Shown here: one piece after another, positions 7,001 through 18,620 of the stretch
Layout of the letters: each line of letters begins with the position of its first letter
How positions within the stretch are numbered: the stretch's first letter is position 1
Source: Streptomyces sp. PCS3-D2
Lineage (GTDB): Bacteria; Actinomycetota; Actinomycetes; Streptomycetales; Streptomycetaceae
NCBI RefSeq assembly: GCF_000612545.2
Contig: NZ_CP097800.1
Coordinates: 4,724,501 to 4,788,500 of the forward strand
Length of the DNA: 64,000 nucleotides
Direction: 5' to 3'
The notes under the pieces: generated by a model
Seen by the model: only the letters and a program-made list of their open reading frames with translations
What the model was told of the DNA's origin: nothing
The model's database searches: none
Made by a program: the position numbers and the translations under genes

Positions 7001-7918
7001 TTGACCACGCACGCACCGCACGCACCGCACGCACCTGATTCACCCCAGGGGGCTCAGGGCCGGCAGGCGGCGCAGTCCGTGACGCTGCCGGCCTCGCTCG
7101 ACGAGGCCGTCGCGGCGCTCACCGCCATGCCCGCCGCCGTTCCCGTCGCGGGCGGCACCGACCTCATGGCCGCGGTCAACGCCGGGCTCCTGCGGCCCGC
7201 CGCGCTCGTCGGCCTGGGCCGGATCAACGAGATCCGCGGCTGGCAGTACCAGGACGGCCACGCGCTGCTCGGCGCGGGCCTCACCCACGCCCGGATGGGA
7301 CGTCCGGACTTCGCCGCCCTGATCCCCGCGCTCGCGGCCGCCGCGCGCGCGGCCGGGCCCCCGCAGATCCGCAACGCCGGCACCCTCGGCGGGAACATCG
7401 CCACCGCGGCGCCCACTGGTGACGCGCTGCCCGTGCTGGCCGCGCTGGAGGCCGTACTGGTCATCGCCGGCCCGGACGGGCAGCGCGAGATCCCGGTCTC
7501 CCACCTGCTGGCCGGGCGCGAGATGCTGTGCCCCGGCGAGCTCATCGGCTTCGTCCGGGTGCCGCTGCTGCACGCCCCGCAGGTGTTCCTCAAGGCCACC
7601 GGGCGCACGGGCCCGGGGCGTGCGGTGGCGTCCGTCGGCCTGGTGCTGGACCCGGCCCGGCGCGGCGTTCGCTGTGCGATCGGCGCCGTGGCGCCCATGC
7701 CGCTGCGGCCGCTGGAGGCCGAGCAGTGGGTGGCCTCGCTGATCGACTGGGACGGCGGGCGGAACCTGGCCCCCGAGGCCCTGGAGGCCTTCGGCGAGTA
7801 CGTCGCGGCCGCCTGCGTCCCCGACCAGGGGGAGCCGGTGGCTCCCGGCGTACTGCACCTGCGGCGGACGGTGGCGGTACTGGCACGCAGGGCCCTCGGA
7901 AGGGCGCTGACCTCATGA
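7001..7918 (+). CDS. Xanthine dehydrogenase family FAD-binding (medium) subunit
   Basis: FAD-binding subunit of a molybdenum hydroxylase of the xanthine dehydrogenase/CO dehydrogenase family. The 305 residues contain the two FAD signatures: VAGGTDLMAAVNAGLL near residue 50 and RNAGTLGGNIATAAPTGDAL near 125-145. A CO_deh_flav_C-like tail follows. Start is TTG at 7001, with GGAAGGGG nicely spaced upstream; no in-frame ATG precedes the conserved region. It overlaps the next gene by ATGA, so the three subunits form one operon. The N terminus has a short His-Ala-Pro repeat. The 293-base upstream gap (6708-7000) holds no recognisable gene. Confidence 0.9.
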   Translation: MTTHAPHAPHAPDSPQGAQGRQAAQSVTLPASLDEAVAALTAMPAAVPVAGGTDLMAAVNAGLLRPAALVGLGRINEIRGWQYQDGHALLGAGLTHARMGRPDFAALIPALAAAARAAGPPQIRNAGTLGGNIATAAPTGDALPVLAALEAVLVIAGPDGQREIPVSHLLAGREMLCPGELIGFVRVPLLHAPQVFLKATGRTGPGRAVASVGLVLDPARRGVRCAIGAVAPMPLRPLEAEQWVASLIDWDGGRNLAPEALEAFGEYVAAACVPDQGEPVAPGVLHLRRTVAVLARRALGRALTS

Positions 7919-10194
7919 GCGAGAACGAGAACGAGAACGTGACCCAGGGGAACGGCACGGCGGGCTGGGGCTGGGAACCGGTCCCGCAGGGCGGCGAGTA
8001 CGACTCGGACGCCACGGCCTTCGTGAAGCTGCCGCAGGACATGCTGGACGCGCTCGGCACTGGCGAGCCGCTCGCGGCACCCGGGCACGGCTATGTACCG
8101 CCGCCGATGATCGTGCCGCTGGGCTCGGCCAGTACGGACCCGGCGGCCACGGGCACGTGGGCGGTCCCGGCGCAGTGGCCGGAGGCGGGCGGGGACCCGT
8201 CGGGGGCCGCCGCGGGCGCGGGTGCGGCTTCCGGGTCCGGTTCCGCTGCCGGTCCGGCGGGCGGGTCCGTCGGCGGGCCGATCCCCGCGACGATCCCCAT
8301 CCCGGCGTCGGTGGCCGCCGCGTTCGCCGAGTCCGAGCCCGACTCCGCGCCGGATCACAACCCGGATCACGACCCGGGCGCGACGGCGGAGTGGCGCTTC
8401 CCCGACGCGGTGCGCGAGCCCGCGGAGGCGCCCTCGGCGACCGGCCAGTGGGACGTTTCCGACCCCGCCCGGCAGCAGGGCGACTTCCGCACGGGCGGCA
8501 GCCTGGACGCGGACTGGAGCCAGGCCCCGGCGACCCTGCCCGGCGGTGCCCCGGCACCGTGGGCCTACCTGACGCAGCAGCAGCCGGTCGCCGGGCCGGA
8601 CCAGGGCCAGGCCCGGACGCAGGCCCAGGACGCCGGTGTCCTGCCGGGCACGGACGAGGCCGCCGCCGCTTCGGCCGCCGCAGCCGCCACGGCGCACGCC
8701 GCCGGACGCCTGCTCGGCGGGCCCGGTGTGGGCGTCGCGGGGCGCGGGCCGCGGGTGCTGGGCGGGCCCGGCGTGGGGACCGCGCTGCAGGAGGCCGAGC
8801 CCGCGCACCGGGCGCCGCACGACATCGAGGCCGCGCACGGACCCGCGGCGACGGCACACGCGGGGGAGCGGCCGCACCCGGGAGCCCCGGCGCAGGAGCC
8901 GTCCGCGGCGGCCGGCGGTGCGGACCCCTTCGGCGGGGCGCATGTCCAGGCCCCGGGCGCGGATGCCGCGCAGCCGGCCGAGCCGGAGCACTTCGCCCAG
9001 CCCGCTCACGGCGGGCACGCCGAACACGGCGGGCACGCCGAACACGGCGGGCACGCCGAACACGGCGGGCACGCCGCGTTCTTCGGGAGCGCCGAACACG
9101 GCGAACACGGCGGGCACTCCGACCCGGCCGCGTACCCCGAACACGCAGCGCACCTCGGACACACCGGGCACACCGGGCACACCGGACACCCTCCGCATCC
9201 CGCGGACACCGACGGGCACGGTTTCGCCGCCTTCGGGCAGGCGCCGGAGCGCGCCGAGCGCGAGCCCGAGCCCGCCCCGGCCGGCCACACCGCCGAGCCC
9301 GAGCCCGCCCCGGCGGACGGCCCCGGCCTCGCCGAAGCGGGCCGGGGGCCCGCACCGGACCACGCCGACGCCGAGGGCTCGGCGCCCGCCGGGGCCGCCC
9401 CTGCCCGCGGGGAGGTCCCGGTCGCGTCCACGCCGGTGGCGGACACCGCCGACAGCGCGGCGGAGCTCCCGCCGGAGGGAACCGGCGAAGGGGTCCCGGC
9501 CGAGGTGCCGGCGTACGCGGAAGAGCCCCGGCCCGCCGCCGACGTGCACCACGAGCACCCCCACGCCTCCTACGTGCTGCGCGTCAACGGCGCCGACCGC
9601 CCCGTCACCGGCGCCTGGATCGGGGAGTCCCTCCTCTACGTGCTGCGCGAGCGCCTCGGCCTCGCCGGCGCCAAGGACGGCTGTTCCCAGGGCGAGTGCG
9701 GCGCCTGCGCCGTGCAGGTCGACGGCCGGCTCGTCGCCTCCTGCCTGGTCCCGGCGGCCACGGCCGCCGGCAGTGAGGTCCGCACCGTCGAGGGCCTCGC
9801 GGCGGGCGGGGAACTCTCCGACGTGCAGCAGGCGTTGTGCAGGACGGGTGCGGTGCAGTGCGGATTCTGCGTACCCGGCATGGCCATGACCATCCACGAC
9901 CTGCTGGAAGGCAACCACGCCCCCAGCGAGCTGGAGACCCGCCAAGCGCTGTGCGGCAACCTCTGCCGTTGCTCCGGCTACGCGGGGGTCGTCGAGGCCG
10001 TGCGCGAGGTCGTGGCAGGGCGCGAGGCCGCGTCGGCAGCGTCCGCGGACGCTGCAGCGGCCGCGGCAGCGGCACAGGCCCCGGAACCGGGGCACGGGCA
10101 CGTTCAGGGCCAGGGCGAGGGCGCGCCGGAGCCGCGCATCCCGCACCAGGCAGCGCCCGGCGAGGGCGGCATCCACCACGGAGGCACGGTGTGA
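7915..10194 (+). CDS. [2Fe-2S] subunit of XDH family with giant low-complexity N-terminal extension
   Basis: Electron-transfer subunit of the operon. Only the C-terminal part (about residues 549-705) is the family domain. It carries both intact [2Fe-2S] clusters, GCSQGECGACAVQVDG with a later Cys and QCGFCVPGM with CGNLCRCSGY. Family members are usually about 160-200 residues; this one has 759. The first 548 residues are Ala/Gly/Pro/Glu-rich and predicted disordered. They include a His-rich block (residues 365-430) with HGGHAE tandem repeats and GHTGHTGHTGH. The start is the ATG overlapping the upstream stop (ATGA). The reading frame stays open with normal high third-position GC throughout, so the extension appears real and not a frame error. 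Confidence 0.85.
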   Translation: MSENENENVTQGNGTAGWGWEPVPQGGEYDSDATAFVKLPQDMLDALGTGEPLAAPGHGYVPPPMIVPLGSASTDPAATGTWAVPAQWPEAGGDPSGAAAGAGAASGSGSAAGPAGGSVGGPIPATIPIPASVAAAFAESEPDSAPDHNPDHDPGATAEWRFPDAVREPAEAPSATGQWDVSDPARQQGDFRTGGSLDADWSQAPATLPGGAPAPWAYLTQQQPVAGPDQGQARTQAQDAGVLPGTDEAAAASAAAAATAHAAGRLLGGPGVGVAGRGPRVLGGPGVGTALQEAEPAHRAPHDIEAAHGPAATAHAGERPHPGAPAQEPSAAAGGADPFGGAHVQAPGADAAQPAEPEHFAQPAHGGHAEHGGHAEHGGHAEHGGHAAFFGSAEHGEHGGHSDPAAYPEHAAHLGHTGHTGHTGHPPHPADTDGHGFAAFGQAPERAEREPEPAPAGHTAEPEPAPADGPGLAEAGRGPAPDHADAEGSAPAGAAPARGEVPVASTPVADTADSAAELPPEGTGEGVPAEVPAYAEEPRPAADVHHEHPHASYVLRVNGADRPVTGAWIGESLLYVLRERLGLAGAKDGCSQGECGACAVQVDGRLVASCLVPAATAAGSEVRTVEGLAAGGELSDVQQALCRTGAVQCGFCVPGMAMTIHDLLEGNHAPSELETRQALCGNLCRCSGYAGVVEAVREVVAGREAASAASADAAAAAAAAQAPEPGHGHVQGQGEGAPEPRIPHQAAPGEGGIHHGGTV
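9007..9078 (+). repeat. 18-bp in-frame tandem repeat encoding HGGHAE
   Basis: Four consecutive 18-base units (CACGGCGGGCACGCCGAA, the last diverging at its end) inside the Fe-S subunit gene. A second His-rich block with a 9-base GGGCACACC-type periodicity follows at about 9157-9189. Confidence 0.9.
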
Positions 10195-12545
10195 GCGGGC
10201 AGGACGCGGCGACGGCGACGGCGACGACCGCCGTGAACGCCACGGTGACGGCCATGGCGGCCCCGGGCGCGCCCGACGCCGCACAGCCGCAGGCACCGCG
10301 CGGCATCGGAGCCTCCGTCGAGGCCACCGACACCCGCGCCAAGACCGAGGGCACCTTCCCCTACGCCGCCGACCTGTGGGCCGAGGGACTGCTCTGGGCC
10401 GCCGTGCTGCGCTCCCCGCACGCCCACGCCCGGATCCTCTCCATCGACACCGAGGCCGCCGCGGAGATGCCCGGCGTGCGCGCCGTCGTCACCCACGCCG
10501 ACGTGCCGGGCGCCACCACCCACGGCCGCCGGATCGCCGACCGCCCGGTGTTCGCCCACGACGTCGTACGCCACCACGGCGAGCCCATCGCCGCCGTCGC
10601 CGCGGACCACCCCGACACCGCCCGCCTCGCCGCGGCAGCGATCGCCGTCGAGTACGAGCTCCTGGACCCGGTCACCGACCCCGAGCAGTCCTTCGGCGCC
10701 CCCGCCCTCCACCCCGACGGCAACCTGATCCGGCACATCCCGCTGCGCTACGGCGACCCGGAGGCCACCGGCGAAGTCGTCGTCGAGGGCCTGTACCGGA
10801 TCGGCCGCCAGGACCCCGCCCCGATCGGCGCCGAGGCCGGACTGGCCGTGCCCCGCCCCGACGGCGGCGTCGAGCTCTACACCGCCTCCACCGACCCGCA
10901 CACCGACCGCGACCTGGCCGCCGCCTGCTTCGGCCTGGAACCGGACCGCGTGCGCGTCGTCGTCACCGGCGTGCCGGGCGCGACGGCCGACCGCGAGGAC
11001 GCCGCCTTCCAGCTCCCGCTCGGCCTGCTCGCGCTGCGCACGGGCTGCCCGGTGAAACTGGCCGCCACCCGCGAGGAGTCCTTCCTCGGCCACACCCATC
11101 GCCACCCGACCCTGCTGCGCTACCGCCACCACGCGGACGCGGAGGGCCGCCTGGTCAAGGTCGAGGCGCAGATCCTGATGGACGCGGGTGCGTACGCCGA
11201 CGCCTCCGCGGAATCCCTGGCCGCGGCGGTGGCCTTCGCCTGCGGCCCGTACGTCGTCCCGCACGCCTTCGTCGAGGGCTGGGTCGTACGCACCAACAAC
11301 CCGCCGTCGGGCCACGTCCGCGGCGAGGGCGCCATGCAGGTGTGCGCCGCGTACGAGGGGCAGATGGACAAGCTCGCGGCCGCCCTCGGCATCGACGGCG
11401 CCGAACTGCGTCTGCGCAACGTCCTGGCGACCGGAGACCTCCTCCCGACGGGCCAGACGGTGACCTGCCCGGCCCCCGTGGCCGAACTGCTCCGCGCGGT
11501 GCGCGATTTCGAACTGCCCGCGCTGCCCAAGGACGCCCCCGAGGACGAGTGGCTGCTGCCCGGTGGCCCGGAGGGCGCGGGCGAGCCCGGTGCGGTGCGG
11601 CGCGGTGTCGGTTACGGGGTCGGCATGGTGCACATGCTCGGCGCCGAGGGCGCCGACGAGGTCTCCACCGCCACGGTGAAGGTCGTGGGCGGCGCGGCCA
11701 CGGTCATCTGCGCCGCGGTCGACACCGGCCAGGGCTTCGGCACGCTGGCGCGCCAGATCGTCCAGGAGGTCCTGGGCGTCGACGAAGTGGTGGTGGCCCC
11801 GGTGGACACCGACCAGCCGCCCGCCGGCCCGTCGGCGCACGGCCGGCACACGTGGGTGTCGGGCGGCGCGGTGGAGCGGGCCGCGAAGATGGTCCGCACC
11901 CAGCTGCTGCAGCCGATGGCCCACAAGCTGGGCATGTCCACCGAGCTCCTGCAGATCCAGGACGGCCGCATCACCTCGTACGACGGCGCGTTCTCGATGT
12001 CGGTCGCGGAGGCGATGGCGGGCAAGGAACTCTGGGCGACCGCCCAGTGCCGCCCCCACCCGACGGAGCCGCTGGACGCGGACGGCCAGGGCGACGCGTT
12101 CGTGGGCCTCGCCTTCTGCGCGATCCGCGCGGTGGTGGACGTGGACATCGAGCTGGGCTCGGTACGGGTGGTGGAGCTCGCGGTGGCCCAGGACGTCGGC
12201 CGCGTCCTGAACCCCCGCCGCCTGGAGGCCCGGATCGAAGCGGGCGTCACCCAGGGCCTGGGCGCGGCCCTGACGGAGAACCTCCGTACGGTCGCCGGCC
12301 TGGTCCGCCATCCCGACCTGACGGGCTATGCCCTGCCGACTGCGCTGGACGCCCCGAGGGTCCGCATCGTCAAGCTGGTGGAGGAGCGCGACGTGGTGGC
12401 CCCGTTCGGCGCGAAGGCGGCGAGCGCGGTCCCGGTGGTGACGACCCCGGCGGCGATCGCCTCGGCGGTCCGCGCAGCCACGGGCCGCCCGGTCAACAGG
12501 CTCCCGATCAGGCCGTCCGCGGCGGTGGGAGTGCCCAACTCGTGA
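10191..12545 (+). CDS. XDH family molybdopterin-binding (large) subunit, degenerate cofactor motifs
   Basis: Large subunit of the molybdenum hydroxylase. The 784 residues include the N-terminal Ald_Xan_dh domain (IGASVEATDTRAKTEGTFPY) and the Moco domain with VRGEGAMQ and VDTGQGFGTLARQIVQEVLG. Two family hallmarks look altered. Where GGGFGGKE is expected there is VPGATADRED (about residues 262-271). Where the catalytic Glu sits in GVGEPP-type loops near the C terminus there is FGAKAASAVPVV (about 738-749), with no Glu. Start is GTG overlapping the previous TGA, after GGAGG. Either the chemistry differs from classical xanthine dehydrogenase or the protein has lost hydroxylase activity (inference). 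Confidence 0.85.
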   Translation: MSGQDAATATATTAVNATVTAMAAPGAPDAAQPQAPRGIGASVEATDTRAKTEGTFPYAADLWAEGLLWAAVLRSPHAHARILSIDTEAAAEMPGVRAVVTHADVPGATTHGRRIADRPVFAHDVVRHHGEPIAAVAADHPDTARLAAAAIAVEYELLDPVTDPEQSFGAPALHPDGNLIRHIPLRYGDPEATGEVVVEGLYRIGRQDPAPIGAEAGLAVPRPDGGVELYTASTDPHTDRDLAAACFGLEPDRVRVVVTGVPGATADREDAAFQLPLGLLALRTGCPVKLAATREESFLGHTHRHPTLLRYRHHADAEGRLVKVEAQILMDAGAYADASAESLAAAVAFACGPYVVPHAFVEGWVVRTNNPPSGHVRGEGAMQVCAAYEGQMDKLAAALGIDGAELRLRNVLATGDLLPTGQTVTCPAPVAELLRAVRDFELPALPKDAPEDEWLLPGGPEGAGEPGAVRRGVGYGVGMVHMLGAEGADEVSTATVKVVGGAATVICAAVDTGQGFGTLARQIVQEVLGVDEVVVAPVDTDQPPAGPSAHGRHTWVSGGAVERAAKMVRTQLLQPMAHKLGMSTELLQIQDGRITSYDGAFSMSVAEAMAGKELWATAQCRPHPTEPLDADGQGDAFVGLAFCAIRAVVDVDIELGSVRVVELAVAQDVGRVLNPRRLEARIEAGVTQGLGAALTENLRTVAGLVRHPDLTGYALPTALDAPRVRIVKLVEERDVVAPFGAKAASAVPVVTTPAAIASAVRAATGRPVNRLPIRPSAAVGVPNS

Positions 12546-12713: not shown

Positions 12714-13211
12714 GTGGCAGAGGACACAGTCGGGGTTCTGGCGCTAGACCTGTCGGGGGACATGGCGGCGTCGATCCGAGCCCAGGCGGACGCACAGGCG
12801 AAGGCGGCGGCCCTCCAGGTCCAGTACGAGGACCTGCAGAGCTACAAGAGCCTGGTGGACGGCCTCCTGACGAAGCTTCAGGAATCCCCGGCGCACCACA
12901 ACAAACTGGCCGACGGCACCCTGCCGACGGGTGCCCTGGGGCAGGGCTTTCCCGAGGCGGACAAGCTGTATGGGGCGTACAAGACCGTCCATTCGGAGCT
13001 GCAGACGCTGTCGAAGGGTCTGGCGGAGCTGATCGAGGCCCTGGGCATCGCGGTCCTGTCCGCAGGCGGCGGCTACGCCGAGGTGGACGAGGAGCAGAAG
13101 CGGCGCATGGTCGTCATCGCCAAGCAGGCCGAAGACGAGTACGGCCGGGATCGTGGCCCCGACGCGGAGAAGAAGAGCGACAGCCCGAAGCCGAAGGGTG
13201 GTGTCATCTGA
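12714..13211 (+). CDS. ESX-associated helical protein, unknown function
   Basis: First gene of a tightly packed six-gene island. The 165-residue product is mostly alpha-helical and Ala/Lys/Glu-rich, without a signal peptide or membrane segment. It carries an YxxxD-type motif (YAEVD, about residues 121-125) in a C-terminal helix, similar to type VII secretion signals. The C terminus is charged and Lys/Pro-rich. Start is GTG at 12714 with GGGGAGG upstream. It overlaps the next gene by one base (TGATG). I do not recognise a named family. Context suggests a secreted partner or chaperone of the following WXG protein (inference). Confidence 0.7.
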   Translation: MAEDTVGVLALDLSGDMAASIRAQADAQAKAAALQVQYEDLQSYKSLVDGLLTKLQESPAHHNKLADGTLPTGALGQGFPEADKLYGAYKTVHSELQTLSKGLAELIEALGIAVLSAGGGYAEVDEEQKRRMVVIAKQAEDEYGRDRGPDAEKKSDSPKPKGGVI

Positions 13212-14674
13212 TGACGGACTTCGAGGGATACACGCACGCACAGCTGCACGCGATGATCGAGTCGCTCGATCCGACGAAGGTCGCGGCGCTGGGCACGAAG
13301 CTCACCGAGGCCGCCACGACGATCGAGCAAATCGGCACCAAGCTCAAGGACCACAAGGTCAAGGACTGGGAGGGCGAAGCTGCCACGGCGTTCCAGGACT
13401 GGGTGAGCCGCGCGGGCAGCGCCACGCTGGAACTGGCCAAATACAGCAAGGTCGGCGGCAAGTACATGGCCGAAGCGGCGCAGGTCATGCGCGAGGTCAA
13501 GCCGTCCAAGGACGGCGCGGGGAACTTCCCCCCGTACGACGCTGCTGCGGACGCGAAGCTCAGGGAGAACCTGGCGACGTCCCGCGAATACCACAACGAC
13601 CCGGATGCGGTGCAGCTCGGCCAGGAGGCCTGGTCGAAGCTGAGCGGCGACCACGCGCGAGCCGTGGACGCGATGAACAAGCTCGCTGGGGCGTACGACC
13701 AGTCCGCGGCGCAGATGGGCAAGACGGAAGCCCCGAGGCTTCCGCCGCCGCCGCAGGTACTGGTGCCGTCGGATTACGGCACCGATGTGGAAAGGAGTCG
13801 CTCCGGGGGTGGTCCCGGAACGCCGAGTTCTTCAGGAATCGTGTCGTACGCGGCTTCGACATCAGGCGATTTCGGCCCTACGGGCGAGTCAGCTGGGGCG
13901 TCTGGGAGCCAGGCGAAGGCGGGCACCGCGGCCCCCTCTGTCTCCGTGCCGGCCACCCCGGATCAAGAAGTGGGCGTGGACCTCGACACTGTCGCCACGC
14001 TTCCGCCTCCGACCACGCCACCGGTGACGACCACCCCCGGTCTCCCGCTGGCCACGGGCCCCGTCGGACCCACCCCCGGCCCCTTCGTCCCGCCTGTGGC
14101 CATCCCGCCCGTCGGCGGCCTGAAGGGACCCGGCCCGTTCGGTACCGGCCCCGGAATCGGTCCGTACCCCGGATTGGGTGGTCCTGGCCTTCCTCCTAGC
14201 GGCAAGGTCATCGGTACGCCCGGCCTGCCCCCGCGTGACGCCGGTATCACAGGCGGACGTCCGGTGACGTCCACCGGCCCGGCCTCCGGCATCCCGCGCG
14301 GCATGGTCGTCGGCGAAGGTACTCAGGCCGGTCGTCCCATGGGTAGCGGTATGGGCCACGGCACCGGGGGCCACTACGGCGGCACCCAGGCCGGTCTTCC
14401 GGCGGGCCGCCGACTGGCCACGGAGCCGGGTGGCGTCATGGGTGGGCGTCAGGCCGGTGCGGTCGGTCGTCCGATTGCGGCGGGTCAGCCGTTCACCCAG
14501 GGCGGTTCTGGCCTTGTGCGCAACGGTGCCGGTCCCGTGGGTCATGCGGGTGCAGGTATGCAGACTCCGGGCGGGGGCCGGGACAGCCAGGGGGGCAAGC
14601 GCCCCGATTACCTGACCGAGGACGAAGAGACCTGGCAGGGCAACCGTCGTGTTGCCCCGCCCGTGATCGACTGA
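13211..14674 (+). CDS. WXG-type, PPE-like protein with Pro/Gly-rich tail
   Basis: The first 170 residues form a helical hairpin-like domain with a WEG turn (Trp53-Gly55) typical of WXG100-type type VII secretion substrates. The remainder to residue 487 is Pro/Gly/Thr-rich and probably disordered. The last segment RPDYLTEDEETW with APPVID at the end contains YLTED, an YxxxD motif of the kind used as a type VII secretion signal. The two-part layout resembles mycobacterial PPE proteins. It is translationally linked to the upstream gene (stop and start share one base). Secretion is inferred; no cognate EccC is in the window. Confidence 0.78.
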   Translation: MTDFEGYTHAQLHAMIESLDPTKVAALGTKLTEAATTIEQIGTKLKDHKVKDWEGEAATAFQDWVSRAGSATLELAKYSKVGGKYMAEAAQVMREVKPSKDGAGNFPPYDAAADAKLRENLATSREYHNDPDAVQLGQEAWSKLSGDHARAVDAMNKLAGAYDQSAAQMGKTEAPRLPPPPQVLVPSDYGTDVERSRSGGGPGTPSSSGIVSYAASTSGDFGPTGESAGASGSQAKAGTAAPSVSVPATPDQEVGVDLDTVATLPPPTTPPVTTTPGLPLATGPVGPTPGPFVPPVAIPPVGGLKGPGPFGTGPGIGPYPGLGGPGLPPSGKVIGTPGLPPRDAGITGGRPVTSTGPASGIPRGMVVGEGTQAGRPMGSGMGHGTGGHYGGTQAGLPAGRRLATEPGGVMGGRQAGAVGRPIAAGQPFTQGGSGLVRNGAGPVGHAGAGMQTPGGGRDSQGGKRPDYLTEDEETWQGNRRVAPPVID

Positions 14675-14695
14675 GCAGAACGGACGTTGTACGGG

Positions 14696-15859
14696 ATGCA
14701 CATGCGCAAGGCGACCTCGGCCCTGGTGGGTCTCCTGCTGGCCGGGGTCGCCGCGACCCCAGCTCACGCGGAGACCATCAGATCGCAGCAGTGGCATCTC
14801 GACGCCATGAAGGCCGACGAGATCTGGAAGATCAGCAAGGGTAAGGGCATCACCGTTGCAGTCATTGATGACGGGGTCCGGGAAATTCCCGAACTGGCAG
14901 GCCAGCTCGTCCCGGGGAAGCGGTTCACCGTTGCAGGCGGTGACGGTCCTACCGACCAAGGCAGCCACGGAACCACCATGGCCGCCGTGATTGCCGGAAC
15001 GGGAAGACATCCGAGTGGTGACGGTGCCTATGGCCTGGCACCCGCCGTGAAGATTCTGCCCATTCTTGTGGATAATAATGAGAAGGCGACGCCGACCTGG
15101 GTCGCGGCAATTCGGTACGCGGCAGATTCGGATGCAAAGATCATCAACATGTCTCTGGGGATTCCCGGGGAGCCCGAGGATGATGTGGCGAGAGCTGAAG
15201 CCGTCAAGTATGCGTTGTCCAAAGGAAAGCTAATCTTCGCGGCTGTGGGTAATTATGGCGATTCGGCCAACGAGCTTGCCTACCCCGCTGGAACCCCCGG
15301 AGTGGTCGGCGTCGGGGCTGTGGATTCCTCAGGCGAACCGACCAAGGAGTCTCAGCACGGCCCGCAGGTGGATCTGGCTGCTCCTGGCATGGAGATCGTG
15401 ACGGCATGCACAGGGAAGTCTGGTCTTTGCACCAGCCACGGAACCAGCGACGCCTCCGCTCTCGCCTCCGCCTCCGCCGCGCTGCTCTGGTCCGCTCACC
15501 CCGACTGGACCAACAACCAGGTCCTGCGCGTGCTCCTGAACACCGCCGGGAAGCCCGTTGACGGGTCTCAGCGCAATGACTACGTCGGCTATGGCGTGGT
15601 CCGGCCCCGGATCGCGTTGCAGACGCCCGGGGATCCCGGCCCGGCCGATGTCTACCCGCTGCCCGATCTGGCCGCGGCGGCCAGTGGCGGAAAGCCTTCC
15701 GCGTCCGCCCCCACCGACGCCACGCCGTCCGCTCCCACCTCCCAGGCTGCCGCCGAGGAGAAGGGCGGCAACTCCCTGCTCTGGGTCGGGCTGGGACTCG
15801 GGGCGTGTGTGCTCATCGGCGGGGCCGTGACCGCGGTGATCGTACGCCGCAACCGTTGA
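14696..15859 (+). CDS. Mycosin-like S8 serine protease (type VII secretion-associated)
   Basis: Membrane-anchored subtilisin-family protease like MycP of ESX systems. From the ATG at 14696 the product is 387 residues: a signal peptide (about 1-25), a catalytic domain with Asp58 (AVIDDG), His91 (GSHGTT), oxyanion Asn186 and Ser251 (HGTSDAS), a Ser/Ala/Pro-rich linker, one C-terminal membrane helix (about 360-382) and an Arg-rich cytosolic end. The triad is intact. A TTG at 14687 and an ATG at 14702 are alternative starts. The stretch around 15040-15260 uses many A/T-ending codons (for example GAT AAT AAT, AAT TAT), unlike its neighbours, which suggests acquisition by transfer. Confidence 0.88.
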   Translation: MHMRKATSALVGLLLAGVAATPAHAETIRSQQWHLDAMKADEIWKISKGKGITVAVIDDGVREIPELAGQLVPGKRFTVAGGDGPTDQGSHGTTMAAVIAGTGRHPSGDGAYGLAPAVKILPILVDNNEKATPTWVAAIRYAADSDAKIINMSLGIPGEPEDDVARAEAVKYALSKGKLIFAAVGNYGDSANELAYPAGTPGVVGVGAVDSSGEPTKESQHGPQVDLAAPGMEIVTACTGKSGLCTSHGTSDASALASASAALLWSAHPDWTNNQVLRVLLNTAGKPVDGSQRNDYVGYGVVRPRIALQTPGDPGPADVYPLPDLAAAASGGKPSASAPTDATPSAPTSQAAAEEKGGNSLLWVGLGLGACVLIGGAVTAVIVRRNR

Positions 15860-15901
15860 CCCACACCTGATCCCACCGGTCCCAACTCGGAGGTTCGCGC
15901 G

Positions 15902-16321
15902 ATGTCGTTCGACGAGGAATGGTCGGCGGCTCGCGCCACGGCCACCGCCAGTGTCTCCATGCGGCTCAACCAGGCCCCCGCCCCCACCCCCGGAGGCGGC
16001 GCTGATCTCGCGCTCAACCAGGACCAGATCGGAGCGATCGGCTCCGAGGCGTACAAGCTGCACACCCGACTGCAGACCGACGGCAAGCACGCCGCCACCG
16101 CGACCGCCGAGGCTGCCGGGGCGCTCACCCGGGAGGGATTCGCGAGCGGGGCTGCCCTGCTCAAAGCCAACACCCTCTGGGAGAGCCAGGTGAAGACCCT
16201 GGTGGCCGCCTGCGCCAACATCTCCAACGGCCTCAACTACTCGCTCTCCTCCCACGCCAAGGACGAGCAGCAGCTCCACGCGGACTTCACGGCGTCCGCC
16301 ATCGACAAGTACCTGAAGTAG
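15902..16321 (+). CDS. Small helical ESX-island protein, unknown function
   Basis: 139-residue, Ala-rich helical protein starting MSFDEEWSAARATAT, with GGAGG upstream of the ATG. It has no signal peptide. Its size and helical character resemble WXG100-like or EspC-like substrates, and LWESQ occupies the region where a WXG turn might be, but a true WxG is absent. It sits 42 bases after the mycosin gene and 13 bases before the next gene, so it belongs to the same operon. A role as partner of the following large protein is inferred from this spacing only. Confidence 0.65.
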   Translation: MSFDEEWSAARATATASVSMRLNQAPAPTPGGGADLALNQDQIGAIGSEAYKLHTRLQTDGKHAATATAEAAGALTREGFASGAALLKANTLWESQVKTLVAACANISNGLNYSLSSHAKDEQQLHADFTASAIDKYLK

Positions 16322-16334
16322 GCGAGGCGTCCGC

Positions 16335-18620
16335 ATGCTGACGTACGAGAACGTGATGAACGCGCCCCTGGACAAGCTCCAGACCGCGGTCACCGACTGG
16401 ACGGCCATGGCCGGTAAGTTGGACGAGATGGCCGAGGCCGCCCGCAACGGCATGAAGGCGAAGTCCGACAAGGCCGAGTGGAGCGGGATCACCGCCGGAG
16501 TGGCACGCGGGTTCGTCGACAAGACGGCGAAGGAGTTCGAGGACGCGGCCAAGGCGGCCAAGGGCATGCACCTGGTCCTCGCCGACGCGCACGCCACCTT
16601 CAAGGCCGCCCAGGACGAGCTGAAGAGGCTCGCGGCGGAAGCCCCCGCAGCCGGTTTCCGGATCGACGCCACCGGGCGGGTCAGCGTCACCCCCCGGCCC
16701 ACCGAGGCCGAGCGGAACGCGGCCCGCCACGACCCCGACTACCAGCAGACCCTCAACGCGAACCGCAACGCCTGGCAGTCCCAGGTCAACCGGGCCGTCG
16801 AGAACGCTCAGGACGCCGATGACTCCCTAGTCCGCGTGCTCCAGGCGAACACGACGGACGAACACGACTTCAGCGGACCGAAGTTCACCACCCTCGACGC
16901 CGAACAGGTCTCCCGCGCAGCCGACCTGATGAAGAAGGTCACCGGCCCGGGCGGCACGGCCCGCAACGTCGAGGCGCTGCGCGAGCTGGAGGAAGTGCTC
17001 GACGACAACCGCGACGACCCCGAGTTCTCGACGGGCCTGTTCCGGACCATCGGTGCCGAAGGCACCCTGCAGATGTACTCCGCGATGTCCCTGGACGCGA
17101 CAAGTTTGGGTACCGCCGGCAAGGACCGGGCGCTCATGGTCTCGAACATCCAGAGCGACCTGGGCGCGATGCTCGGCCTCGCCACGCACAAGGACGTGCC
17201 GGGCCACCTCGACGCGGCCTGGACGACCCAGCTGATGAAGGCCGGGCGCAAGGAGATGGACGTCTTCGGCGGCGTCCGGCAGATCTACGGCTACCAGGCC
17301 CTCGGCGCGCTGCTGCGCGAGGGGAAGTACGACACGGAGTTCCTGACTTCTGTGGGCCGCGACATGATCGCCATGGACCGTGAGGACCCGCAGGCCTGGG
17401 AGTTCCACACGCCGATCGGCCTGGAGACCGTACTCAATCAGGGGCTGGAGGGCGGCCGCGGCTTCTACCCGCTGACCGGACTCATGGAGGCACTCGGCAA
17501 CAACCCGGACGCGGCGACGGCCTTCTTCAACGAGCCGGTCCGCGAGGACAGCAACAAGGACGGCATCGTCACGAAGGACGACAAGCCGGTCGGCGGCCAG
17601 CACGGCAAGGACCGGGGCATGGTCGACTACATGCTCGACAAGAAGCCGTACATGGACGGCTTCGACATCGTCCCGACCGGCGACCTCCGCCCGGCCCAGC
17701 AGGCCCTCGGTGACGCGCTGATGGCGGCCGTCTCCCACCGGGGCCCCGGCGACGAGGACGCGCCGCCGGTCGCGCACACCAAGGAGATGGCGGCGGTCAT
17801 GGAACGGATCGTCGAGAAGATCGGCGACGAGCCGGATCTGGTCGACGCCGACCCGGGTGACCCGGAGGGTCCGCTGAACGGGCTGTCCGGGCACTTCGGC
17901 CAGATGGCGGCGGAGTACATGCCGGACATCCAGGCGGCGGCGGACAACACGAGCCGAATGATCAAGGTCAACGGGGTGATGGCCGAGTTCAACAAGGCCG
18001 ACATGGCGGCCTTCATCGGCGCGGTGGCGCAGGACCCGGACGCCTACGGAGCCATCACCAACGCCCAGCGGGCGTTCACCACGACACTCGTCAACGACGT
18101 CATCGCCCACCGTGCCGAGTACGAGGAAATCGACGCGGCGATCACGGTCGCCGTCCACCCGGGTGGCCAGATCGCGGGCATCCTTTCCGAGGCCCGGGCC
18201 GAGGGGACGTTTGCCGAGAACGGTTACCAGGCTGAGGAGTACGTCAAGGGCGTGGAGGACAACGCCAAGTGGGTCAACCGCGTCATCGGCGCTGCCGGTG
18301 GGAAGTACCTGGAGATGGTGCCGTTCGCAGGCGATGTCGTGGAGTGGCTCCAAGAGGACATCTCTGAGAGCGTGGTCGAACGAGCGAAGAAGGACCAGGC
18401 GGATAAGACGGGCGAGGTCGACCACAAGGCCGTGCTCGACTACACGCAGGCCCAGGTCGAGGCCGGCGAGTCCGCGGCGCAGTCGGTCCGCAAGGCTGCG
18501 GAGGGGACGGGTATGAACCAGCGGAGCATTGACGCCCTCGCCGGCACGGCCTCGGCGCAGACGGCCAACGCGCACGCTGTCGGCCGTGGTCAGGTCGCCA
18601 CGTCTAATGGCGGCGGCTGA
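16335..18620 (+). CDS. Large helical ESX-island protein, possible secreted effector or scaffold
   Basis: 761-residue protein. About the first 125 residues form a helical, coiled-coil-prone domain (PLDKLQTAVTDWTAMAGKLD), reminiscent of LXG/WXG N-termini of type VII substrates. Several hundred residues of mixed helical sequence follow, with no catalytic motif I can name. The segment with DSNKDGIVTKDD resembles a Ca-binding EF-hand-like loop (D-x-N-x-D-G-x-x). The C terminus is helical with an Asn/Gly end. Several polymorphic-toxin-like proteins share this layout, but no toxin domain or immunity gene is evident. It overlaps the next gene by ATGA-type coupling. Confidence 0.65.
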   Translation: MLTYENVMNAPLDKLQTAVTDWTAMAGKLDEMAEAARNGMKAKSDKAEWSGITAGVARGFVDKTAKEFEDAAKAAKGMHLVLADAHATFKAAQDELKRLAAEAPAAGFRIDATGRVSVTPRPTEAERNAARHDPDYQQTLNANRNAWQSQVNRAVENAQDADDSLVRVLQANTTDEHDFSGPKFTTLDAEQVSRAADLMKKVTGPGGTARNVEALRELEEVLDDNRDDPEFSTGLFRTIGAEGTLQMYSAMSLDATSLGTAGKDRALMVSNIQSDLGAMLGLATHKDVPGHLDAAWTTQLMKAGRKEMDVFGGVRQIYGYQALGALLREGKYDTEFLTSVGRDMIAMDREDPQAWEFHTPIGLETVLNQGLEGGRGFYPLTGLMEALGNNPDAATAFFNEPVREDSNKDGIVTKDDKPVGGQHGKDRGMVDYMLDKKPYMDGFDIVPTGDLRPAQQALGDALMAAVSHRGPGDEDAPPVAHTKEMAAVMERIVEKIGDEPDLVDADPGDPEGPLNGLSGHFGQMAAEYMPDIQAAADNTSRMIKVNGVMAEFNKADMAAFIGAVAQDPDAYGAITNAQRAFTTTLVNDVIAHRAEYEEIDAAITVAVHPGGQIAGILSEARAEGTFAENGYQAEEYVKGVEDNAKWVNRVIGAAGGKYLEMVPFAGDVVEWLQEDISESVVERAKKDQADKTGEVDHKAVLDYTQAQVEAGESAAQSVRKAAEGTGMNQRSIDALAGTASAQTANAHAVGRGQVATSNGGG

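Follow-up and report, generated by a model that had tools for sequence, protein, structure and literature searches.

The closest described relatives of the system reported here are the PucABCDE-type xanthine dehydrogenase and, further, 4-hydroxybenzoyl-CoA reductase (4-HBCR), nicotinate dehydrogenase, D. gigas AOR and KdhLMS. The system is a three-gene operon at 7001-12545 of the window, by which we mean the whole 64,000-nucleotide stretch of Streptomyces sp. PCS3-D2 that was analysed (contig NZ_CP097800.1, positions 4,724,501 to 4,788,500), and it encodes a flavin adenine dinucleotide (FAD) subunit (M), an iron-sulfur (Fe-S) subunit (S) and a large subunit of molybdenum (Mo) type (L). NuoG of complex I, a relative of the molybdopterin oxidoreductases, is a redox subunit without the molybdenum cofactor (Moco). 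In KdhL, F269 stacks on the pterin, G270 is strictly conserved and lies 3.9 Å from Mo, R383 together with F269 stabilises the cofactor and E748 is described as the general base (PMC8305194). In hAOX1, the residues listed as stabilising the pterin are Gln776, Phe807, Arg921 and Gln1203 of the Mo domain and Gln113, and the variant G1269R, which places an Arg in the pocket, is reported to be free of Moco and yet to retain its fold (Mota et al., PMC6487702).

The trio resembles the PucABCDE type in its M/S/L make-up and its domain order, and its L shares 42-55% identity with the canonical relatives seen in actinobacteria. It differs from that type in that the catalytic Glu, the pocket Gln and Phe and the flavin-side loop are replaced, S carries a long extension and the score against the PucD model stays below its cut-off. 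The matches to 4-HBCR, nicotinate dehydrogenase, AOR and KdhLMS span nearly the whole of L (for nicotinate dehydrogenase, over two chains), but where this L has Ala, the aligned residue of 4-HBCR, AOR and KdhL is still the catalytic Glu. As in hAOX1 G1269R, whose fold is described as stable without Moco (PMC6487702), a basic side chain stands in the pocket; unlike that single natural human variant, this is the fixed state of a conserved protein, and the Arg is at another position. The catalytic and cofactor-holding residues of L are replaced, the Fe-S ligands and FAD motifs are intact, L is under purifying selection and the trio is retained almost universally. We propose, with a probability of about 0.6, that the trio is a core complex of the family Streptomycetaceae which is of PucD-type descent, has lost its Mo-cofactor site and survives as an FAD/Fe-S redox complex, that is, as a conserved pseudo-molybdoenzyme.

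An operon of PucD-type descent

The original prediction placed the operon correctly. Its three genes run in one direction in the order M-S-L and overlap at their stop and start codons:

7001..7918, + strand: M, FAD subunit; TTG start; FAD_binding_5 domain; AGGTD and TLGGN motifs kept; PF03450 not detected
7915..10194, + strand: S, subunit with two [2Fe-2S] clusters; ATG overlaps the M stop; Fer2 and Fer2_2 domains with all eight Cys
10191..12545, + strand: L, Mo-type subunit; GTG overlaps the S stop; Ald_Xan_dh_C, MoCoBD_1 and MoCoBD_2 domains; PucD-derived, pocket replaced

The Pfam domains of M, S and L all score above the curated cut-offs and place the trio by descent in the xanthine oxidase family. 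The best NCBIfam model for L is that of PucD (TIGR03196, 638.1 bits), and L descends from the PucD-type xanthine dehydrogenases. Such a clear ancestry would be expected of an ordinary xanthine dehydrogenase of merely unusual look, an explanation that is highly improbable since the score falls under the equivalog cut-off of 783.65, the catalytic Glu is missing in 147 of 147 orthologues and a PucD-type paralogue with canonical motifs (loci L003/L094) is found in the same genome. The source genome of 7.6 Mb has five MoCoBD_2 places.

The molybdenum site of L

The following replacements in the pocket of L were read from alignment, with residues numbered as in P0003 (L without the start Met):

10890..10892, + strand: T233 for the conserved Gln (assigned to hAOX1 Q776)
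10971..11000, + strand: VPGATADRED for GVGGAFG[GA]RED; T264 at the pterin-stacking Phe
11319..11330, + strand: RGEG for RGFG; E378 invariant in the aligned orthologues
11841..11849, + strand: GRH for SRQ in the SASRQT loop
12231..12233, + strand: R680 for the conserved Gln (assigned to hAOX1 Q1203)
12417..12428, + strand: AASA for GxGE; A745 at the catalytic Glu

Two of these stretches had been singled out in the original prediction, VPGATADRED as a replacement of GGGFGGKE and FGAKAASAVP as a replacement of the catalytic Glu loop, and both are indeed altered. The first is present at 10971-11000, and a degenerate pattern written for bases 10971-10999, its first 29, matches the window a single time and none of 100 shuffles; the form in the closest relatives is GVGGAFG[GA]RED, and the Glu of this loop is retained as E268, which we take to be bovine E802. 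The second begins at 12405, and its A745 aligns with the catalytic Glu of the solved structures (D. gigas AOR E869, 4-HBCR E726, KdhL E748), as T264/A265 align with KdhL F269/G270, with these positions counted manually along the alignment rows. By our own motif-based assignment, hAOX1 776, 807, 921 and 1203 correspond to L 233, 264, 376 and 680, and Gln113 to the Gln before CGFC in S.

The original prediction had also called for a survey of Streptomyces orthologues. Loci were translated, L matches of more than 600 residues were kept and near-identical copies dropped, and 188 of 202 sequences were aligned, comprising 147 degenerate (above 900 bits), 7 intermediate and 34 canonical rows. The substitutions turned out to be common property of the orthologues. 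Position 233 is T in 147/147 degenerate rows versus Q in 34/34 canonical rows, position 378 is E147 versus F32/L2, position 680 is R147 versus Q34 and the catalytic position 745 is A146/S1 versus E34. The remaining columns are less uniform, with T121, M17, S3, L3, F1, A1 and V1 at position 264 (canonical F34), A74, G70 and S3 at position 265 (canonical G34) and H142/Q5 at position 552 (canonical Q34). By the above assignment, three of the four hAOX1-listed pterin positions in the Mo domain are therefore replaced (233 and 680 in 147/147, 264 in 146/147), and the fourth, Arg376, is retained in 145/147; E268 and Q513 are also kept, in 146 and 128 of the 147 rows. Of the 218 columns that are invariant in the canonical rows, 147 stay unchanged in ≥97% of the degenerate rows, and in 36 another residue is fixed. 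These fixed replacements take up 16 of 52 canonical-invariant columns inside the Moco-loop windows versus 20 of 166 outside (p 0.002, the windows being drawn post hoc from the motifs).

A molybdenum hydroxylase has its catalytic Glu and its pterin-holding residues, and here the former is replaced in all 147 orthologues and one of the four latter is kept. Canonical hydroxylase chemistry has very probably been lost, and Moco itself is probably absent from L, judging by the residues that would hold it. In the seven intermediates, which form a sister lineage (see below), position 680 is R7, position 745 is D7, position 378 is P5/A1/S1 and position 233 is P4/Q3. Since R680 replaces a cofactor-holding Gln and is accompanied by an acid at 378 or 745 depending on the lineage, the pocket may well be filled. 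L226, from genome G447, is a strongly eroded orthologue in which the pocket Arg of RGEG is changed to His and the linker carries a long Ala/Pro insertion.

The main alternative is that L is a Mo enzyme still, holding Moco in an altered pocket and carrying out a different reaction with the general base moved to E378 of RGEG. This residue is invariant in 147/147 orthologues, and the corresponding loop is described as lying ~4 Å from Mo (PMC8305194); the retention of R376, Q513 (128/147), E268 and the S Gln would agree with such an enzyme. We consider it unlikely, since residues that hold the pterin have changed (Q233T, F264 to T or M, Q680R), position 265, a strict Gly family-wide, has become Ala or Ser in 77/147, the orthologue of G447 has lost R376 as well and the sister lineage is without E378.

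The electron chain

The ligand columns of S are Cys in 157/157 rows at five positions and in 155/157 (2 gaps) at two more, and the eighth Cys is present in 149/149 distinct S cores. The eight-Cys spacing pattern fits 159 of 160 loci (duplicates retained), and the sole miss, L082, has all eight Cys with a longer spacer. S thus has the full ligand set for the two [2Fe-2S] clusters of the xanthine oxidase family, and the Gln before CGFC is present in 157/157. Of the FAD-binding features of M, the AGGTD and GGN motifs are kept; AGGTD is found in 86/96 loci, nine of the ten misses being truncated, frame-damaged or masked and the tenth, L090, reading AGATD.

The original prediction that all cofactor motifs of these two subunits are intact holds for S and for AGGTD and TLGGN of M, but not for the rest of M. 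The C-terminal domain PF03450 was not detected in the window's M (P0001) in the Pfam domain search; it scores 46 bits in the canonical M of the same genome, 46.9 bits in an M from another family (f9) and 23.5 bits, below the cut-off, in an intermediate M. Furthermore, the conserved K.GTRNAM loop of M has been replaced, the canonical FLKVGTRNAMVIS reading FLKATGRTGPGRAVAS here, and this loop is presumably the equivalent of the one that bears Y193 in KdhM. KdhM Y193 is reported to protect the isoalloxazine (PMC8305194). Since the flavin-side loop of M and the pocket of L are rebuilt while the Fe-S cysteines are intact, it is both ends of the chain that have been rebuilt and not its middle. The combination that had been predicted, of an intact Fe-S wire and an altered catalytic site that would not perform ordinary purine oxidation, is supported.

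From its altered flavin-side loop and its long S tail, whose conserved box is found in 77/88 distinct N-terminal stretches, the complex could also be read as redox-inert and kept for binding, a scaffold or a ligand sensor whose output would be a phospho-regulated S tail. This is decidedly unlikely, since the Fe-S ligands and AGGTD/GGN are kept almost without exception, which would be needless for a scaffold, and the tails of L081, L082, L087 and L090, from other genera, are short and lack the box.

Distribution, descent and selection

Within the genus, 194 of 199 genomes (source genome counted) have their best L match at E = 0, a level that the canonical paralogue, at ~1e-165 to 1e-176 in the genus rows, does not reach; individual rows for the 194 genomes were inspected among the matches listed. 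When the remaining five were searched again, G119 and G171 were found to hold L in two frames overlapping in the linker, G178 has a partial L (residues 461-782), and the matches in G008 and in G050, an assembly 82% complete, were all of canonical type or weaker. The two L pieces of G171 (L242/L247) and of G119 (L243/L248) meet in the MoCoBD_1-MoCoBD_2 linker, reflecting either a split gene or a sequence error. Within the family, 93 of 101 genomes have matches of at least 67% identity, those of G464 and G495 being partial and six containing one stop, and 7 of the 101 carry the intermediate type at 51-52% identity. For G447 the matches listed included only one at canonical level, and its degenerate copy was found beside yqgE, DUF3039 and hex.

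Matches found outside the family in the class (246 genomes) are at canonical level. Canonical motif columns were seen in L055-L062, L108-L113, L232-L234, L236, L237, L239 and L240, a call that rests on the motif columns of the listed rows, and L238 is without the C-terminal part. In a search with M for orthologues outside the family in these 246 genomes, the best outside matches (G278, G230, G247, G263) reached 203-214 bits; the L beside three of these four (L232-L234) is canonical and that of G278 is incomplete. The canonical PucD-type L proteins of L232-L234 (family f9) are 54-55% identical to P0003 over approximately residues 33-571, which among the matches listed tops the other outside canonical matches covering most of L.

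In a quick IQ-TREE tree of 68 rows, drawn without the f9 rows and with the approximate likelihood ratio test (SH-aLRT) as its only support, the degenerate and intermediate rows share one side of a branch with a support of 98, and the values are 99 for the degenerate and 100 for the intermediate rows; support for the canonical rows as a single group is no higher than 49, and the outgroup includes branches flagged as long. The yqgE/DUF3039 genes lie upstream of the trio in the degenerate and the sister lineage wherever the contig extends far enough, and the intermediates are therefore positional orthologues. Q680R would then either predate the split of the lineages or have arisen twice, and the catalytic Glu would have changed to Ala in the degenerate lineage and to Asp in its sister.

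The ratio of nonsynonymous to synonymous substitution rates (dN/dS, NG86) of L is 0.07-0.22 between the window and ten orthologues; for canonical L it is 0.24-0.40 in six within-genus pairs, which differ in divergence from the degenerate set, and the one genome pair common to both sets (G000/G088) gives 0.218 for the degenerate versus 0.243 for the canonical L. The degenerate L is under firm purifying selection, though it does not evolve more slowly than its paralogue across genera. The two-frame L of G119 and G171 and the single stop in the matched stretch of 6 of the 93 family orthologues might suggest a decaying pseudogene or a sequencing artefact; the likelihood of this is next to negligible and the survey contradicts it, since the orthologue rows of the genus search are stop-free among the matches listed, L081 and L087, the two stop-bearing rows retrieved, have open frames over the matched L, and dN/dS is low. 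L is conserved and under selection with its catalytic motifs lost, as is typical of a pseudoenzyme, its presumed inactivity being read from the sequence.

In 4 of 11 genomes chosen for the check (G043, G113, G135, G472) the degenerate L is the sole MoCoBD_2 protein found. MoaA is missing in 3 of the 199 genomes (G002, G050, G079), where G050 and G079 are incomplete assemblies, whereas in G002 MoaC is present, as are further MoCoBD_2 proteins. PF00174, which represents sulfite-oxidase-type molybdoenzymes, and PF00384, which also covers NuoG, were matched in 6/6 genomes checked, including the four just named. Because all six have PF00174 molybdoenzymes, the loss of Moco synthesis is a neutral test of Moco use by L.

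The S extension and the surrounding genes

The window's S has a low-complexity N-terminal extension of ~550 residues ahead of Fer2/Fer2_2, and the first Fe-S Cys follows the M stop by a median of 431 residues (range 51-971, 96 loci). One box near its N terminus is conserved:

7966..8034, + strand: conserved box WGWEPVPQGGEYDSDATAFVKLP near the S N terminus; Thr codon at 8014-8016

This GEYD.DATAFV.LP-type box is the one found in 77/88 distinct N-terminal stretches, and an APGHGYVPP-like box is found in 78/88. The 11 misses of the former include short-tailed orthologues of other genera and the frame-damaged L132, and others (L088, L092, L188) have, by eye, a variant outside the regular expression. 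A second copy of the box in its own genome was sought with no comparable match (next 19.2 bits, E 0.0145). The acidic residues before the box Thr and the hydrophobic residues at +3 and +5 resemble a Ser/Thr-kinase site, and this Thr is possibly one. At least one DPxATGxW-like motif (e.g. window 8135-8470) occurs in 73/88 distinct N-terminal stretches. An 18 bp tandem repeat at 9007-9103 (3.9 copies, 100% matches at 9007-9076) encodes a His-rich HAEHGG stretch of the S extension, which could bind metal.

Type VII secretion-like genes (WXG100-type and a mycosin-like protease, named by eye) lie directly downstream of the operon at 12714-18620. The contig scan, which detects close relatives only, gave 80 named loci (79 Streptomyces and one 'Actinobacteria bacterium'), and the downstream genes d1 and mycP are present in 39/80 and 37/80 of them, some loci being truncated. 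We excluded this cluster from the system because d1 and mycP are variable, whereas yqgE/DUF3039 precede the trio even in the sister lineage.

Discussion

The original prediction had offered a different reaction, a different metal or a redox relay. Of these, the last agrees best with the data, since the replacements extend beyond the catalytic base to residues that hold the cofactor; there is no sign in L of a different metal. With the FAD and the Fe-S pair still in place, the economical interpretation is that of a redox relay or a redox sensor. In the conserved pseudo-molybdoenzyme that we propose, L would no longer bind Moco and the vacated pocket would be filled by fixed residues, R680 being joined by E378 or, in the sister lineage, by D745. 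Electrons would enter or leave at the flavin of M, whose facing loop is rebuilt, travel along the two Fe-S clusters and either be exchanged with a partner at L or be stored as a redox signal. Recruitment or regulation of the complex would probably fall to the S tail and its conserved Thr box. More tentatively, the Moco-free branch might be a family-wide core redox switch, in which the emptied pocket, rebuilt with a fixed Arg/acid pair, serves for docking or ligand binding, the flavin end is re-tooled and a conserved phospho-Thr box in a disordered tail gained by S links it to Ser/Thr-kinase signalling; we regard this as possible, with the odds somewhat against it.

Several points weigh against the proposal. 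We infer both the absence of Moco and the redox partner. R376, Q513, E268 and the S Gln are all retained at the frequencies given above, and the Gly beside the stacking Phe remains Gly in 70/147. Across genera, the degenerate L is less identical than the canonical L in 18 of 21 pairs and more identical in 3 (seven genomes). Among the 199 genomes, no orthologue-bearing genome is convincingly without Moco synthesis.

From its map position, we take SCO2940 to be the counterpart of the present gene. SCO2940 is tabulated as 'putative oxidoreductase' and, by TIGR, 'xanthine dehydrogenase, putative' (PMC3770449), and sco2939 is listed in a table of sigma-E targets (PMC6767563). Some conserved orphan clusters from 929 Streptomyces genomes include genes annotated as xanthine dehydrogenase, in wording that fits this operon or another (PMC13118837). 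In the open-licence PubMed Central (PMC) literature we found no study of this complex, and no fixed, family-wide complex of xanthine oxidase type with a dismantled Mo site turned up there.

A pseudoenzyme of a known family is a known kind of protein. If the proposal is true, 'xanthine dehydrogenase' is the wrong name for an operon that Streptomyces and its relatives carry almost universally. The complex would also be a parallel in idea, within the xanthine oxidase family, to NuoG of complex I: Moco would have been lost and the electron-carrying Fe-S centres retained, although NuoG belongs to another molybdoenzyme superfamily and the present complex is a stand-alone trio. The sister lineage, with Asp for Glu, would complete a series from the canonical enzyme to the altered complex, and how a Mo enzyme loses its metal yet keeps its wires would become testable in tractable bacteria.

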